Shown in pieces: positions 10,114-42,647 of a stretch of 64,000 nt of DNA. The position numbers were made by a program, and so were the translations under genes. Positions within the stretch are counted from its first letter, which is position 1; the number at the start of each line of letters is the position of its first letter. A model generated the notes under the pieces. That model had not been told where the DNA came from. It saw only the letters and a list, made by a program, of their open reading frames with translations, and ran no database searches. The stretch covers positions 1 through 64,000 of the forward strand of contig JANQAK010000003.1 of the NCBI GenBank assembly GCA_024707075.1, given 5' to 3'. Origin of the DNA: Afipia sp. (lineage in GTDB: Bacteria; Pseudomonadota; Alphaproteobacteria; Rhizobiales; Xanthobacteraceae).

Positions 10114-11377
10114 ATGAGCGAGCCAGTTCGGACCCCACCTTTCGCGCCATTTGAATGGATGTTGTCGACCCGCTATCTGCGGGCGCGGCGCAAGGAAGGG
10201 TTCATTTCGGTCATCGCCGGCTTCTCGTTCCTCGGCATCATGCTCGGGGTGGCGACGCTCATCATCGTGATGGCGGTGATGAACGGCTTCCGCAAGGAAT
10301 TGCTCGACAAGATTCTCGGCTTGAATGGCCATATCGTTGTGCAGCCGCTGGAATCGCCGCTGACCGACTGGAAAGAAGTGGCCGAGCGCATCAGCAAGGT
10401 TCAGGAATCCGCCTCGCGGCTCCCGTGGTGGACGGGCAGGCGCTGGCGTCGTCGCCGTTCAACGCCGCCGGCGTGTTCGTGCGCGGCATCCGGGCGCAGG
10501 ATCTCAACGGCGTCACGTCGATCACCAAGAACATCAAGCAGGGCACGCTGGAGGGCTTCGACGAAGGGCAAGGGGTTGCCATCGGCCGCCGGCTTGCGGA
10601 TCAACTGTCGCTGCGCGCCGGCGACAGCATTACGCTGGTGGCGCCGCGCGGCGCGGTGACGCCGATGGGCACGACGCCGCGCATCAAGCCGTACAAGGTC
10701 GCTGCTGTGTTCGAGATCGGGATGTCCGAATACGATTCCTCGTTCGTGTTCATGCCGCTGGTCGAGGCGCAGGCCTATTTCAACCGCGCCAATGATGTCA
10801 CCGCCATCGAGATCTACACGACCAACCCGGACAGGATCGACACCTTCCGCAAGTCGGTGACCGAGGCGGCGCAGCGACCGATCTTCCTGGTCGACTGGCG
10901 ACAGCGCAATTCCACGTTCTTCAATGCGCTTCAGGTCGAGCGCAACGTGATGTTCCTGATCCTGACCCTGATCGTGCTGGTGGCGGCGCTGAATATCGTC
11001 TCCGGACTCATCATGCTGGTGAAGGACAAGGGCAGCGACATCGCGATCCTGCGCACCATGGGCGCGTCGCAGGGCTCCGTCATGCGAGTGTTCCTGATCA
11101 CCGGCGCTGCCATCGGCGTGGTCGGGACGCTGGTAGGGTTCCTGCTGGGACTGATCGTCTGTCTCAACATCGAGTCGATCCGGCAGTTCATCTCATGGAT
11201 GACCAACACCGAACTGTTCTCGCCCGAGCTTTACTTCCTGTCCAAGCTCCCGGCTGAGGTCGATGTTGGCGAAACCGCCGCCGTCGTCATCATGGCGCTG
11301 ACGCTGTCGTTTTTGGCGACGCTGTATCCCTCGTGGCGCGCCGCGCGTCTCGATCCCATCGAAGCACTCAGGTACGA

Positions 11378-11381
<4 letters not shown>
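10114..11381 (+). CDS. lolC: Lipoprotein-releasing ABC transporter permease LolC/E, apparently frameshifted near 10400
   Basis: ORF 10114-10659 gives the N-terminus ([44 protein letters not shown]); the frame ending at 11381 gives [18 protein letters not shown]... to ...[10 protein letters not shown]. Confidence 0.9.
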
Positions 11382-12088
<707 letters not shown>

Positions 12089-12394: not shown

Positions 12395-12577
12395 TCTGTT
12401 CTCCTGTCGGGTTGTCGCCCGCTTTGCCTGAAGTGTTGATGTAGCCACAGACCGTTGTTCGCGCCGTTCGTCAACTCACGTTCCCGCGTAGCTGTTGATG
12501 GATTTGCGAGCCGTTCCGGCTGTTTACGCTTTGTTAGCAACACTGGTTTGTCGAAATAGGGACTGTAGCTCTCGCCC

Positions 12578-12605
12578 TTGACTTTGAGAACAAATAAGGA
12601 ACAAT
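12578..12605 (+). promoter_or_regulatory. Candidate sigma70-like promoter (TTGACT, ~16 bp, AACAAT) overlapping a LexA box
   Basis: Sequence inspection; -35-like TTGACT at 12578-12583 and -10-like AACAAT at 12600-12605. Confidence 0.5.
12588..12602 (-). promoter_or_regulatory. LexA/SOS box (GAAC-N7-GAAC = GTTC-N7-GTTC on the minus strand)
   Basis: GAACAAATAAGGAAC; matches the alphaproteobacterial LexA consensus GTTCN7GTTC. Confidence 0.75.
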
Positions 12606-12620
12606 GTTCTTATTATGTTC
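12606..12620 (+). promoter_or_regulatory. LexA/SOS box (GTTC-N7-GTTC)
   Basis: GTTCTTATTATGTTC, 3 bp from the first, oppositely oriented box. Confidence 0.75.
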
Positions 12621-12646
12621 TCTTGGAGTGAATGGGAGTGACGATC

Positions 12647-12745
12647 ATGTTGAAGACATTCGTGGAAGAAGCCGCCGCGCTGACCTCGCTCGTGCTTTTC
12701 GTTGGAATGGTCGCGATCTGGGCGCAGGTCATTCCTCAGATGTGA
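12647..12745 (+). CDS. Small (32 aa) single-TM protein, candidate SOS-induced peptide
   Basis: MLKTFVEEAAALTSLVLFVGMVAIWAQVIPQM; RBS-like GGGAGTGA upstream; central hydrophobic helix; below the length cutoff of the supplied ORF track. Confidence 0.65.
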   Translation: MLKTFVEEAAALTSLVLFVGMVAIWAQVIPQM

Positions 12746-12932
12746 GGCCCGGCGTCGGGCAACTCGAGGCTGGGGATAATGATGAGGGACCCGGCATAGA
12801 CCCATGGGTCTGCGTCTTCTGCGTGGACACCTCCTGCGCAAGGCACCACCATCGACTTCTGTGAGTCGCTCTGTCGCCGCAGATGGTTCGTTCCGCCGAC
12901 GAGCCGCTTCTGCGAAGGTTGCCAAGGTCAGC

Positions 12933-15900
12933 ATGTCTAAAACCGCACCGAAATCGGCCGGGTCCGACCCCGGATTCGTTCATCTGCACGTTCATTCGGC
13001 CTATTCGCTGCTGCAAGGCTCGATCACCATCAGCAAGCTGGTGGACCTCGCCAAGGCCGATCATCAGCCCGCGCTGGCGCTGACCGATAACGACAACATG
13101 TTCGGCGCGCTGGAGTTTTCCGACAAGCTGGCCGGCTATGGCATCCAGCCCATCACCGGCTGCGCGATGTCGATCGACTTCGGCGATCAGGACCCCACCG
13201 CGCGCAATGCGCTGGCGCCCGCGCGAATCGTTCTGCTTGCCACGAACGAGGCGGGCTACCGCAGCCTGATGAAGCTGAACTCCCGCGCGTTTCAGGACAC
13301 GCCGACCCATCAGGCGCCGCACATCAAGGTCGAATGGCTGGACGGCGAAACCTCCGGCCTCATTGCATTGACCGGCGGCCCGGAGGGGCCGATCGCGCAG
13401 GCCATCGCCGCCGATCAGCCGGCGCTTGCGCAGGCGCGTTGCGATACGCTGGCGGAACTGTTCGGGGATCGTCTCTACATCGAATTGCAGCGCCACGGGC
13501 TGGACAGCGAGCGGCGCTGCGAATCCACGCTGATCGACATGGCCTATGCCATGGATCTGCCGTTGGTCGCGACCAACCAGCCATACTTCGCCAGCGCCGA
13601 TGACTACGAAGCGCATGACGCGCTGCTCTGCATCGCGGGTGGACGGCTGGTCTCGGAAACCGACCGCCATCAGTTGACGCCGGATCATCGCTTCAAGACC
13701 CGCGCGGAAATGGCCGTGCTGTTCGCCGATCTGCCGGAGGCGCTGGCCTCCACCGTCGAGATCGCGCGGCGCTGCGCGTTCCGCCCGAGGACGCGCAAGC
13801 CGATCCTGCCGCGCTTTGCGGTGGTGGGCAGCGCGAACGCCGCGGATGCGGAAAGCGAGGAATCGGAGGAGTTGCGGCGGCAGGCCGAGGAGGGGCTGGC
13901 GCGGCGGCTGGCAACGCACGGTCTGTCGCAAGGTGTGTCCGAGGAGGACTACCGCGCGCGGCTGGCATTCGAGATCGATGTCATCATCCGGATGAAATAT
14001 CCGGGCTACTTCCTGATCGTGTCGGACTTCATCAAATGGGCGAAGGCCCAGGGCATTCCGGTCGGGCCGGGCCGCGGTTCGGGCGCGGGATCGCTGGTCG
14101 CCTATGCGCTCACCATCACCGATCTCGATCCCATCCGGTTCGGCCTGCTGTTCGAGCGCTTTCTCAATCCCGAGCGCGTCTCGATGCCGGACTTCGATAT
14201 CGATTTTTGTCAGGACCGGCGCGGCGAAGTGATCCGCTACGTTCAGGAACGCTACGGCCGCGATCAGGTCGGCCAGATCATCACCTTCGGTACGTTGCAG
14301 GCGCGCGGCGTGCTGCGCGACGTCGGCCGCGTGCTGCAAATGCCTTATGGCCAGGTGGACCGGCTCACCAAGCTGGTGCCGCAGAATCCCGCAGCCCCCG
14401 TGACGCTGTCGGCCGCGATCGCCAGCGAACCGAAACTGCAAGCCTTCCGTGATGAAGATCCGGTGGTCGCGCGCGCCTTCGACATCGCGCAGCGCCTTGA
14501 AGGACTGACCCGCCACGCCTCGACCCACGCGGCGGGCATCGTGATCGGCGACAGGCCGCTCTCCGAACTCGTGCCGATGTACCGCGATCCGAAATCGGAC
14601 ATGCCGGTCACCCAGTTCAACATGAAGTGGGTTGAGCCTGCGGGCCTCGTGAAGTTCGACTTCCTCGGCCTCAAGACGCTGACGGTGCTCGATGTCGCGG
14701 TGAAGCTGCTCAAGCAGCGCAACATCGATGTCGATCTCGCCACCCTGCCGCTCGACGACAAGCCAAGTTACGAGATGCTGGCGCGTGGCGAAGTGGTCGG
14801 CGTGTTCCAGGTTGAAAGTCAGGGCATGCGGCGCGCGCTGGTCGATATGCGCCCCGACCGCTTCGAGGACATCATCGCGCTGGTCGCGCTCTATCGTCCC
14901 GGTCCGATGGCGAACATCCCGACCTACTGCGCGCGCAAGCACGGCGACGAGGAGCCGGAATACCTGCATCCGATGCTGGAGCCGATTCTCAAGGAAACCT
15001 TCGGCGTCATCATCTATCAGGAACAGGTGATGCAGATCGCGCAGGTCATGGCCGGCTATTCGCTCGGCGACGCCGACCTGCTGCGTCGCGCGATGGGCAA
15101 GAAGATTCGCGCGGAGATGGACAAGCAGCGCGCCGGCTTCGTCGCCGGCGCCGTCAAGAACGGCGTGCCGAAGGGGCAAGCGGAAACCATCTTCGAACTG
15201 CTGGCGAAATTCGCCGACTACGGCTTCAACAAGAGCCACGCCGCGGCCTACGCGCTGGTGTCGTACCAGACCGCCTACATGAAGGCGCACTATCCGGTCG
15301 AATTCATCGCCGCGTCGATGACGCTCGACATGAACAACACCGACAAGCTCTCGGAATTCCGTGCCGAGGCGCAGCGGCTCGGCATCAAGGTCGAAGCACC
15401 GTCGGTCAATCGCTCCGGCGCGACGTTCGAGGTCAACGACAATACGATCTATTATGCGCTGGCGGCGCTGAAAGGTGTCGGCGCGCAGGCGGTCGAACTG
15501 ATCGTGGAAGCGCGCGGAGACCGCGCCTTCACGTCGCTGGCCGATTTTGCCTCGCGCGTGAACCCGCGCGCCATCAACAAGCGCGTGGTGGAAAGCCTCG
15601 CGGCGGCGGGCGCGTTCGATACCATCGACGCCAACCGCGCGCGCGTGTTCGCGGGCGCGGAGGCCATCGTTGCTGCATGCCAGCGCGGTCACGAAGCTGC
15701 CACCAGCGGGCAGAACGATATGTTCGGTGGCATGGCTGATGCACCGAGCATCGTGCTTCCCAATATCGAGCCGTGGCTTCCGGCGGACCGGCTGCGGCGC
15801 GAATACGACGCCATCGGCTTCTTCCTGTCCGGACATCCGCTGGACGATTATGCGACGGCGCTGAAGCGCCTGCGCGTGCAGTCGTGGAGCGAGTTCTCCC

Positions 15901-16463
15901 GCGCGGTGAAAACCGGCGCGACGGCGGGACGTGTGGCCGCGACGGTGGTGTCGCGCATGGAGCGCCGCACCAAGACCGGTAACAAGATGGGCATCATGGG
16001 CCTGTCCGATCCCACCGGCCATTTCGAGGCTGTGCTGTTCTCCGAAGGGCTGGCGCAGTATCGCGATGTGCTCGAACCCGGATCGGCGGTTTTGCTGCAA
16101 CTCGGCGCGGAGCTTCAGGGCGAGGACGTGCGCGCGCGGATTCTGCATGCCGAACCGCTCGACGATGCGGCAGCCAAGACGCAGAAGGGGCTGCGCATCT
16201 TCGTGCGGGACGACAAGCCGCTGGAGTCAATCGCCAAGCGGCTGGAAGGCCAGCAGGCCCCGGCCGGAAACGTCAGCCGGTTCCAGCCGGCAAAGCCCGT
16301 CACCCCGACGCCCGGCGGAAGCGACGGCGAAGTCACCTTGGTGATGATGCTCGATCTCGAAACAGAAGTGGAGATCAAGCTACAGGGCAAGTTCCGCGTG
16401 TCGCCGCAGATTGCCGGCGCGATCAAGGCGGTCTCCGGCGTGGTGGACGTGCAGACGGTGTGA
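12933..16463 (+). CDS. dnaE: DNA polymerase III subunit alpha
   Basis: FVHLHVHSAYSLLQGSI PHP domain, GPGRGSGAGSLVAYAL, PDFDIDFCQDRRGEVIRYVQ polymerase motifs. Confidence 0.97.
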   Translation: MSKTAPKSAGSDPGFVHLHVHSAYSLLQGSITISKLVDLAKADHQPALALTDNDNMFGALEFSDKLAGYGIQPITGCAMSIDFGDQDPTARNALAPARIVLLATNEAGYRSLMKLNSRAFQDTPTHQAPHIKVEWLDGETSGLIALTGGPEGPIAQAIAADQPALAQARCDTLAELFGDRLYIELQRHGLDSERRCESTLIDMAYAMDLPLVATNQPYFASADDYEAHDALLCIAGGRLVSETDRHQLTPDHRFKTRAEMAVLFADLPEALASTVEIARRCAFRPRTRKPILPRFAVVGSANAADAESEESEELRRQAEEGLARRLATHGLSQGVSEEDYRARLAFEIDVIIRMKYPGYFLIVSDFIKWAKAQGIPVGPGRGSGAGSLVAYALTITDLDPIRFGLLFERFLNPERVSMPDFDIDFCQDRRGEVIRYVQERYGRDQVGQIITFGTLQARGVLRDVGRVLQMPYGQVDRLTKLVPQNPAAPVTLSAAIASEPKLQAFRDEDPVVARAFDIAQRLEGLTRHASTHAAGIVIGDRPLSELVPMYRDPKSDMPVTQFNMKWVEPAGLVKFDFLGLKTLTVLDVAVKLLKQRNIDVDLATLPLDDKPSYEMLARGEVVGVFQVESQGMRRALVDMRPDRFEDIIALVALYRPGPMANIPTYCARKHGDEEPEYLHPMLEPILKETFGVIIYQEQVMQIAQVMAGYSLGDADLLRRAMGKKIRAEMDKQRAGFVAGAVKNGVPKGQAETIFELLAKFADYGFNKSHAAAYALVSYQTAYMKAHYPVEFIAASMTLDMNNTDKLSEFRAEAQRLGIKVEAPSVNRSGATFEVNDNTIYYALAALKGVGAQAVELIVEARGDRAFTSLADFASRVNPRAINKRVVESLAAAGAFDTIDANRARVFAGAEAIVAACQRGHEAATSGQNDMFGGMADAPSIVLPNIEPWLPADRLRREYDAIGFFLSGHPLDDYATALKRLRVQSWSEFSRAVKTGATAGRVAATVVSRMERRTKTGNKMGIMGLSDPTGHFEAVLFSEGLAQYRDVLEPGSAVLLQLGAELQGEDVRARILHAEPLDDAAAKTQKGLRIFVRDDKPLESIAKRLEGQQAPAGNVSRFQPAKPVTPTPGGSDGEVTLVMMLDLETEVEIKLQGKFRVSPQIAGAIKAVSGVVDVQTV

Positions 16464-16490: not shown

Positions 16491-16577
16491 TGCCTTATTC
16501 CGACTACCTTTCGTTCAAACAATGTTCATGCGGCGCAGGATTGACTGCGCGTGATGGGCTGAACGGGGACACGTTTC

Positions 16578-18866
16578 ATGCGCGGAATTGCCAGACTCCT
16601 GAATGTCGCGGCGGTATTGCTTGCCGCCGCGTCGATGTCGCCGCTTCACGCGCAGACGCAAACACAGCAACCGCAGGCCCAGCAGAACCGCATCGCGCTG
16701 GTGATCGGCAACGGCAACTATCCGGCAGCACCCCTGGCGACCGCCGCAAACGACGCCGGTCTCATCGCGCAGACATTGCAGGCGGCGGGATTCGATGTGG
16801 TCGGCGCACGCGATCTCGATGGCGAAACGCTGCGCCAGACCTTCCGCGATTTCATTCAGAAGGCGAAGACGGCGGGGCCGGATACCGTCGCGGTGGTTTA
16901 TCTCGCGGGCTACGGCTTGCAGCTTGCGGGCGAGAACTATTTCGCGCCGGTCGATGCCGCCATGGCGCGCGACACCGACGTTCCGGTCGAGGGCCTGCGG
17001 ATCGGCGACTATATCCGGCAACTGTCGGCCTTGCCGCTGAAGGCCAATGTCGTGGTGCTCGACACCGCCTACACTCATCCGTTCGCGAAGGAGGGGCAGC
17101 CGCTCGCGGGCGGCCTCGCGCTGATGGAGCCGGAGCCGAAAGGCCTGATTGCATTCAACGCCGCGCCCGGCACCATTGCTCCGTCGCCGACAGGTAACTA
17201 TGGACCGTATGCGCAGGCGCTGGCGGAGATGATCCGCACCGGCGGCATTTCGCTTCCCGAGATTTTCAATCGCACGCGGCTGCGCGTGAACGACGTCACC
17301 AAGGGCGCTGAGGTGCCGTGGGATGCACAGAAGCTCGAAGGCGATTTCGTGTTCTTCGAGCGCGCCCCGGACGCACCGCAGATCCCGGCAAGTCAGGATG
17401 CGGCCGCACGGTCCAAACCCATTCGCGATATGAGCGCGCAGGAGGCGTACACCGCCGCGCTCGACCGCGACACGATCGCGGATTACGAGAGTTTCCTTGC
17501 CGCCTATCCCGACGATCCGATGGCGAAGCGGGTGAGGGCGATCGTCGCCGCACGCCGCGAGGCGATCACATGGCGGCAGACCTATCGCGCCAACACGCAG
17601 CAGGCTTACTGGTCCTATCTCAAGCGCTATCCGAAGGGACCGCATGCGGCGGACGCACGCCGCCGCCTTGCCAATATTGCCGCAGCACTCGAGCCGCCTC
17701 CATCGTTCGATGCGTATGCTTACGACGTGCCCCCGCCGCCGGAATACGAGTACGAATATGTCGATCGGCCGTATTTGATGTTCGACGATCCGGTGTTCGC
17801 GTTTGCTCCGCCGCCACCGCCGCCGATTTTCTTCCTGCAACCGCCGCCGGACGATTTCGTCGTGCTCGAGCCGCCGATGTACTACGATGATGCCTATTAT
17901 CTGCCGCAGCCGGTGTTCATTCCGATCCCGGTCTTTATCCGGCCGCCGATCTACGTGCGTCCGCCGAGGAACCGTTTCCTGTTCACGAACATCCATAACA
18001 GGGATGTCATCAACACCATCATCAACCGGCGTCCGCCGTCTGCCGATGCTCGTACTGCTCCCGGCGGTCAATTCCGGCCCGGCCGGGCCGGCAGGTTGGA
18101 TAGTGCAGCGACGGTCCGTCCCGCTTTCGCTCCGGGCTTGCCGCCATCGGCTGAACGCAGGGGCAATCTGATCCGCCAGGGCAAAGTGACCGCGCCTGCG
18201 GGTGTGTTGCCGGGCGCCGCCGGTCGCGGCCGCCCCGGACTGGGCCAGACGCCGCAAGGCGTGTCACGGCCGGGCAATCTTCCTGCACCCAATCTGCTGC
18301 CGGGGCAGGCCCCGGGAGGTGGACCCGCTGCCCGTCCGGGCGCTCGTCCGCTGCCCAATGCCTTGCCGGCACCCAGTGCGTCCGGCCCGCAGCCCGGTCA
18401 GGATAGCCGTCCCGGACGATTCGACCGGAGTCCCGGCGGCAGACCCGGCCTTGCGCGGCCATCGGCGCAGCCGGAGACCGCTGCACCGTCTGGACCGGCG
18501 GCAAGGCCCGGCCGTCCGGAACGGCCTGCTGCCCAGTCCCGGCCGCAATTCCAGAGGCCGACGGCTGCGCCGCGGCCCCAGATGGCTCCCCGTCCACAGG
18601 TCCAGCGGCCTCAGTTCCAGCGCCCTGCGGCTGCTCCGCGTCCGCAGATGGCGCCACGGCCACAGCCGCAATTCCAGCGGCCGGCCATGGCTCCTCGGCC
18701 TCAAATGGCTCCCAGACCCCAGATGGCTCCGCGACCGCAAATGGCTCCGAGGCCCCAGATGGTGCCGAGGCCGCAGATGGCCCCGCGTCCGGCTCCGCCG
18801 CCGCGCGCGGCTCCGGCGCCCCGGCCTGCACCGGCGGCGAGACCGGCCAAGCCGCCGCCGGGTTAG
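16578..18866 (+). CDS. Caspase-fold (peptidase C14-like) secreted protein with Pro-rich C-terminus; catalytic residues apparently lost
   Basis: Signal peptide; RIALVIGNGNYPAAPLATAANDAGLIAQTLQAAGFDV; YLAGYGLQ in place of Y-SGHG; VVLDTAYTHP in place of LDACR-NP. Confidence 0.85.
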   Translation: MRGIARLLNVAAVLLAAASMSPLHAQTQTQQPQAQQNRIALVIGNGNYPAAPLATAANDAGLIAQTLQAAGFDVVGARDLDGETLRQTFRDFIQKAKTAGPDTVAVVYLAGYGLQLAGENYFAPVDAAMARDTDVPVEGLRIGDYIRQLSALPLKANVVVLDTAYTHPFAKEGQPLAGGLALMEPEPKGLIAFNAAPGTIAPSPTGNYGPYAQALAEMIRTGGISLPEIFNRTRLRVNDVTKGAEVPWDAQKLEGDFVFFERAPDAPQIPASQDAAARSKPIRDMSAQEAYTAALDRDTIADYESFLAAYPDDPMAKRVRAIVAARREAITWRQTYRANTQQAYWSYLKRYPKGPHAADARRRLANIAAALEPPPSFDAYAYDVPPPPEYEYEYVDRPYLMFDDPVFAFAPPPPPPIFFLQPPPDDFVVLEPPMYYDDAYYLPQPVFIPIPVFIRPPIYVRPPRNRFLFTNIHNRDVINTIINRRPPSADARTAPGGQFRPGRAGRLDSAATVRPAFAPGLPPSAERRGNLIRQGKVTAPAGVLPGAAGRGRPGLGQTPQGVSRPGNLPAPNLLPGQAPGGGPAARPGARPLPNALPAPSASGPQPGQDSRPGRFDRSPGGRPGLARPSAQPETAAPSGPAARPGRPERPAAQSRPQFQRPTAAPRPQMAPRPQVQRPQFQRPAAAPRPQMAPRPQPQFQRPAMAPRPQMAPRPQMAPRPQMAPRPQMVPRPQMAPRPAPPPRAAPAPRPAPAARPAKPPPG
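18541..18840 (+). repeat. Degenerate tandem repeats (~18 bp unit) coding for PRPQMA
   Basis: atggctccgcgaccgcaa-type units encoding MAPRPQMAPRPQMAPRPQ. Confidence 0.85.
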
Positions 18867-41808: not shown

Positions 41809-42513
41809 TCAATACTTCCGCACCAGCCCGACCAGCTTGCCCTGAATCCGCACGCGGTTGGGCGGCAGGATGCGAACTTCATAGGCTGAGTTGGCAGGCT
41901 CCAGCGCGATGGACGCGCCGCGCCGCCGGAAGCGTTTCAGGGTGGCCTCTTCCTCGTCGATCAGCGCCACCACGATGTCGCCGGTGTCGGCGCTGTCGTT
42001 GCGCTGGATCAGCACGGTGTCGCCGTCGAGGATGCCCGCTTCCATCATGGAGTCGCCGCGCACTTCGAGAGCATAATGCTCGCCGGAGCCGAGCATGTCG
42101 GGCGGCACGCTGATGGTGTGGCTGCGGGTTTGCAGGGCCTCGATCGGCGTACCTGCCGCAATCCGGCCCATCATCGGCACCGAGACCGGGAAGCTCGCAT
42201 CCTCATCGGGACCGGCAGACGGGTTCGAGCGGACCTTGCCGAGATTGCCCTCGATGACGCTCGGCGTGAAGCCGCGGCGTGCGCCGCCGGGATTGACGCC
42301 CAGTTCGGGGAGCTTGATGACCTCGATGGCGCGGGCGCGGTTGGCGAGCCTGCGGATGAAGCCGCGCTCCTCGAGCGCGGTAATCAGCCGGTGGATGCCG
42401 GACTTGGAGCGCAGGTCCAGCGCGTCCTTCATCTCGTCGAACGAGGGCGGAACGCCAGCTTCCTTCAGCCGCTCGTTGATGAAGCGAAGAAGCTCGTACT
42501 GTTTGCGTGTCAG
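41809..42513 (-). CDS. lexA: LexA repressor
   Basis: [61 protein letters not shown] cleavage site region. Confidence 0.97.
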
Positions 42514-42632
42514 CATCTGAATGGGTCCCCGGTCTTTCGTTGATCCGGTGCTGTCGCTTTCTGAACGTGCCTGTTGAGCGGGCAATCAGAAGGAACGAGT
42601 CACTCGAAACAAATCATGAACGAACACTATCT

Positions 42633-42647
42633 GTTCCATATGTGTTC
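42633..42647 (+). promoter_or_regulatory. LexA box upstream of lexA
   Basis: GTTCCATATGTGTTC = GTTC-N7-GTTC, 120 bp upstream of the lexA start. Confidence 0.85.

Follow-up and report, generated by a model that had tools for sequence, protein, structure and literature searches.

The window analysed here is a stretch of 64,000 nucleotides at the start of an Afipia sp. contig (JANQAK010000003.1), and the locus of interest within it is a 32-codon open reading frame (ORF) that lies between lolD and dnaE, is read in the same direction as both, and stands behind two opposed LexA boxes. The features on which the analysis draws are as follows.

11333-12088, plus strand: lolD (ABC transporter ATPase), which flanks the conserved slot upstream; its true start may be internal to the ORF
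12578-12583, plus strand: -35 hexamer TTGACT, inside a conserved cTTGAC (TTGAC is kept 5' of box 1 across the family)
12588-12602, minus strand: LexA box 1, GTTCCTTATTTGTTC, an exact motif in the -35/-10 spacer
12600-12605, plus strand: -10 hexamer AACAAT from a promoter scan, taking in the 3-bp gap and the adjoining end of box 1
12606-12620, plus strand: LexA box 2, GTTCTTATTATGTTC, an exact motif 3' of the -10 hexamer and over the presumed start-site region
12634-12638, plus strand: Shine-Dalgarno sequence GGGAG, 8 nt 5' of the ATG
12647-12745, plus strand: single-helix peptide of 32 aa, MLKTFVEEAAALTSLVLFVGMVAIWAQVIPQM, proposed as an orthologue of sidA (from conservation, selection on the frame, profile links and helix prediction)
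12933-16463, plus strand: dnaE (DNA polymerase III alpha), the downstream flank of the conserved slot
41809-42516, minus strand: lexA, 235 aa, presumed repressor, with its start at 42516
42633-42647, plus strand: LexA box 5' of lexA, an exact motif that serves as a positive control for the consensus

Operators, promoter and peptide

Positions 12588-12620 read GAAC-AAATAAG-GAAC-AAT-GTTC-TTATTAT-GTTC, that is, an exact GAAC-N7-GAAC and an exact GTTC-N7-GTTC separated by 3 bp. The sigma-70-like arrangement TTGACT-16-AACAAT (12578-12605) is the sole promoter-like site in 12400-13000; box 1 lies between the two hexamers and extends into the -10, and box 2 follows the -10. An earlier note on this DNA had described two perfect inverted boxes 3 bp apart, the first in the spacer of a plausible promoter, followed by a 32-aa ORF with a good ribosome-binding site, and had used the box upstream of lexA as an internal control; each of these statements was borne out. 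The GGGAG lies 8 nt before the ATG at 12647, and lexA starts at 42516 on the minus strand. The GTTCN7GTTC operator thus overlaps the promoter of the ORF and the same motif precedes the lexA gene of the window, as is characteristic of the alphaproteobacterial LexA regulon. Occupation of a single promoter by two LexA dimers, as this layout suggests, would give tight repression, apt for a peptide that is harmful when leaky.

Single GTTCN7GTTC boxes are common in this genome, with 93+84 (177) matches compared with 71+57 (128) for a reversed control pattern, so that a single box is weak evidence when taken alone. The exact 33-bp double-box pattern, a palindrome counted on both strands, is found once in the window and once in the whole genome of 5,300,980 bases, where its reversed control has 0 occurrences. 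When any gap of 1-31 bp is allowed between the opposed boxes there is still one occurrence in 5.3 Mb and none of the reversed control.

The window holds two further exact boxes that the earlier note had not listed. One, at 42439-42453, falls within the coding region of lexA and probably arose by chance. The other, GTTCAAACAATGTTC at 16513-16527, is located directly downstream of dnaE, 50 bp 5' of a gene for a 762-aa exported protein (16578-18866) with a caspase domain (PF00656, 111 bits), and it is conserved in 5 of 6 relatives examined from the same genus and in one further genome. By eye, the His and Cys motifs expected for catalysis look replaced in this caspase-fold protein (YLAGYG; LDTAYTH), which may therefore be an SOS-controlled pseudo-caspase.

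The peptide itself is modelled by AlphaFold, with single-sequence input, as one helix spanning residues 2-31 (pLDDT 93), which agrees with the single-helix, 29-32-aa form of SidA, and it would be expected to insert into the membrane as one helix. With a start at the in-frame ATG of 12632 it would have 37 aa, but relatives align from the methionine at 12647. A search for a conserved face of the helix gave no significant moment (p 0.11, 0.36).

Conservation within the Xanthobacteraceae

The peptide was searched for in 150 genomes of the window's family, and relatives were found in 112 of them at E<=1 and in about 105 at E<=1e-3 (a hand count from the table). Ninety loci were taken for inspection, and nearly all true matches among them have lolD and dnaE as their neighbours and, in front, the same opposed box pair, which ends some tens of bases 5' of the ATG. 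The exact pair with its 3-bp gap is retained in 63 of 80 distinct family loci; most of the others carry the pair with 1-2 substitutions, or with a 1-, 8- or 31-bp gap. Across these 80 loci there is little constraint on 5' positions other than the boxes and the cTTGAC of the -35.

The region 5' of dnaE was also scored in its own right. Among 101 distinct family loci, 76 have both box and ORF, one has the box only, none has the ORF only and 24 have neither; shuffled controls yielded 0.0 linked box-ORF pairs. As about 24/101 loci have neither box nor ORF, the gene is dispensable in some genera. Genera g2, g7, g14, g16, g19, g24, g32 and g41 have neither 5' of dnaE, and nearly all of their genomes are also devoid of the opposed box pair genome-wide.

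Pooled dN/dS was 0.25 in frame (1859 pairs), and pN/pS was 1.04 and 2.07 in the other two frames; selection therefore acts on the amino acids, and on this pattern of substitution the reading frame is under purifying selection as a protein. In an ungapped comparison of same-genus loci the ORF is 82% identical, whereas the 90 bp after its stop are 28% identical. M1 and W25 are invariant in the family alignment, and E8, L12, S14, L17, F18 and A26 are nearly so. Lack of conservation or of a coding signature in relatives had been named beforehand as grounds for rejecting the candidate; relatives in about 105 of the 150 family genomes and the in-frame dN/dS leave it standing. Four loci (L076, L077, L081, L082) encode 30-33-aa family-like peptides away from dnaE and have no LexA boxes; these are possibly paralogues or chance helices, and they were left out of the family membership counts.

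The slot upstream of dnaE and the link to SidA

A sequence-only search of the class with the window-family profile gave no clear matches beyond the family itself, and for this reason the region upstream of dnaE was examined elsewhere. Of 81 loci from other families, 18 combine a LexA box with a linked single-helix ORF of 30-47 aa that has a ribosome-binding site. Of 80 named Caulobacteraceae or related loci taken for the same comparison, 79 have a 29-32-aa helix ORF just 5' of dnaE, most behind a LexA box, and the linked box-ORF arrangement is present in 58/79 distinct loci. Many of the Brevundimonas sidA counterparts have two same-orientation LexA boxes, 18 bp start to start; such double boxes were seen in loci of Brevundimonas and related Caulobacterales (L208, L212, L213, L224 and L226), and they show that the double operator of this gene has more than one arrangement.

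The identity of the Caulobacter slot ORF was provided by a curated model. In C. vibrioides OR37 a 29-aa ORF 5' of dnaE, behind GAACATCTTGTGAAC, matches NCBIfam NF033228 (cell division inhibitor SidA, div_inhib_SidA) over all 29 positions with 72.7 bits (cut-off 35), and SidA itself therefore resides in the dnaE slot. Caulobacter crescentus/vibrioides SidA is CCNA_02004; a direct published statement that this gene adjoins dnaE (CC1926) was not found, and it was the NF033228 match that settled the placement. The slot immediately 5' of dnaE is thus common to the window's family and the Caulobacteraceae.

The same model does not reach the window peptide, which matched nothing in Pfam or NCBIfam, NF033228 included (no match at E<=1), and is accordingly outside the cut-off of that model. 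Of 33 family members only one gave a weak match to NF033228 (E 0.067), and the cut-off was exceeded in 0/236 genomes of the class; among the controls only Caulobacter vibrioides matched. A Brevundimonas counterpart scored 20.5 bits against the cut-off of 35, so that the model is too narrow even for the Caulobacteraceae.

The window-family profile scored 18.3 against the Caulobacteraceae SidA profile (E ~1e-4), whilst permutation of the columns of the latter, with composition kept, gave a mean of 8.5 (sd 1.9) and 0/300 as good; when permutation was limited to the membrane segment, 3/200 reached the direct score, so that the direct link is modest. A bridging set of 16 ORFs from about 11 other families was also compared. 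Its members were chosen by position, ribosome-binding site and possession of one hydrophobic helix, with similarity playing no part; all but L151 have a LexA box (15 of 16). Independently aligned, the bridging profile scored 33.4 against the window family (E 7e-9) and 33.8 against SidA (E 5e-9), each with a permuted mean of ~8 and 0/200 as high; the test was also done with a joint alignment, and its weak point is that the profile rests on 16 short sequences. Profile homology to SidA is thus seen both directly and via intermediate families, and on these comparisons we conclude that the window ORF and sidA have a common ancestor and occupy the same locus. The likeness to SidA, which had been put forward as an analogy, has in this way gained strong support from the shared lolD-dnaE slot of the curated C. 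vibrioides SidA, and from size, promoter logic, residue pattern and the profile link through intermediate families.

A candidate SOS checkpoint and its alternatives

In Caulobacter, SidA is a 29-aa, LexA-controlled inner-membrane protein that interacts with FtsW, and mutations in ftsW/ftsI suppress it (PMC4211646). The window peptide, at 32 aa, resembles it in forming one predicted helix with a basic residue and an E near the N-terminus, in the common pattern E--AL-S---F--M, and in having a LexA box 5' and the slot immediately 5' of dnaE. It differs in its two inverted LexA boxes, where most Caulobacter loci have one box and many Brevundimonas loci two of the same orientation, in having G20-M21 where SidA has W19-M20, and in falling outside NF033228; its binding to the divisome is proposed by analogy. 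TisB and DinQ of E. coli are also SOS-induced single-helix inner-membrane peptides, but are distinguished by toxin-type action and antisense RNA control, whilst YneA of Bacillus subtilis and SosA of Staphylococcus are LexA-controlled small single-pass division inhibitors. To our knowledge TisB and DinQ have no locus or sequence link to the window peptide, and we know of no sequence relation to it for the Gram-positive YneA and SosA. YneA is reported to act on FtsW (PMC13396833). DidA of Caulobacter is likewise a small single-helix, damage-induced division inhibitor that acts on FtsW/I/N, but it has 71 aa, is SOS-independent (DriD-activated) and is found at another locus (PMC4211646).

The best explanation, to which we give a probability of roughly 80%, is that ORF 12647-12745 is a sidA orthologue that is repressed by LexA, derepressed by damage and delays septation via late divisome proteins. 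Its parts differ in strength. Orthology with sidA and control by LexA are well supported by the comparative evidence, the operators being present at the ORF and conserved in the family; binding of LexA and induction by damage in this genome would be expected from those operators, and inhibition of division through a divisome target is inferred by analogy with SidA. In undamaged cells, LexA would sit on the two opposed boxes that bracket the -10 and keep the promoter shut. DNA damage would lead to RecA-driven cleavage of LexA and opening of the promoter; the peptide would then enter the inner membrane as one helix and hold the late divisome (FtsW/FtsI/FtsN; the septal synthase complex) inactive by binding FtsW/FtsN, so that septation waits for repair.

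The most serious competitor, though an improbable one, is a LexA-controlled membrane peptide that has its locus and ancestry in common with SidA but has drifted to another job, depolarising or dormancy-inducing in the manner of TisB or DinQ. SOS single-helix peptides of similar size do include such toxins (DinQ, PMC3567139), the similarity of the window peptide to SidA is limited, and a functional test outside Caulobacter was not found in the literature searched; set against this are the linkage to SidA via intermediate families and the same slot and regulation, and, incidentally, no antisense or antitoxin RNA came to notice. We regard it as decidedly unlikely that the ORF is a short leader linking dnaE expression to SOS induction, with the peptide sequence secondary. 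Readthrough into dnaE is possible, since dnaE follows in the same direction after 187 bp with no terminator-like site found, yet the in-frame dN/dS points to selection on amino acids, dnaE is 0.9-1.2 kb further on in some relatives, another ORF intervenes in several relatives, on the opposite strand in L042 and L059, shuffled versions of the 193 nt in between fold just as well (z -0.5), and in Caulobacter the counterpart is known to work as a protein (PMC4211646). A chance pairing of LexA-like boxes with a spurious ORF, for which the abundance of single boxes might speak, is ruled out by the unique exact pair, its conservation in tens of genera, the purifying selection and the empty shuffles.

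The window peptide is thus best regarded, on sequence and locus evidence and despite failing the current curated model, as a sidA orthologue whose function would follow by analogy. More broadly, it is likely, if a little less so than the reading of the window ORF, that SidA is an ancient alphaproteobacterial checkpoint gene and not a Caulobacter speciality, with a settled place between lolD and dnaE in a dozen or more groups of family rank; in the window's family it is marked out by a double LexA operator whose opposed boxes span the -10. Neither SidA outside Caulobacter nor a tie of SidA to the dnaE slot was found in the literature searched, which took in few subscription papers; at about 30 codons and fast-evolving, the gene would be easily overlooked elsewhere, and such slot ORFs escape the curated SidA model, whose scope is too narrow. 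Proteins that inhibit division in the SOS response show little conservation, and in most bacteria none is known. With a position rule, between lolD and dnaE and behind a LexA box, the probable inhibitor can be found in many alphaproteobacteria, among them the large group to which the window is related; the rule makes the checkpoint testable there and gives a deep set of natural variation for the SidA-FtsW interface.
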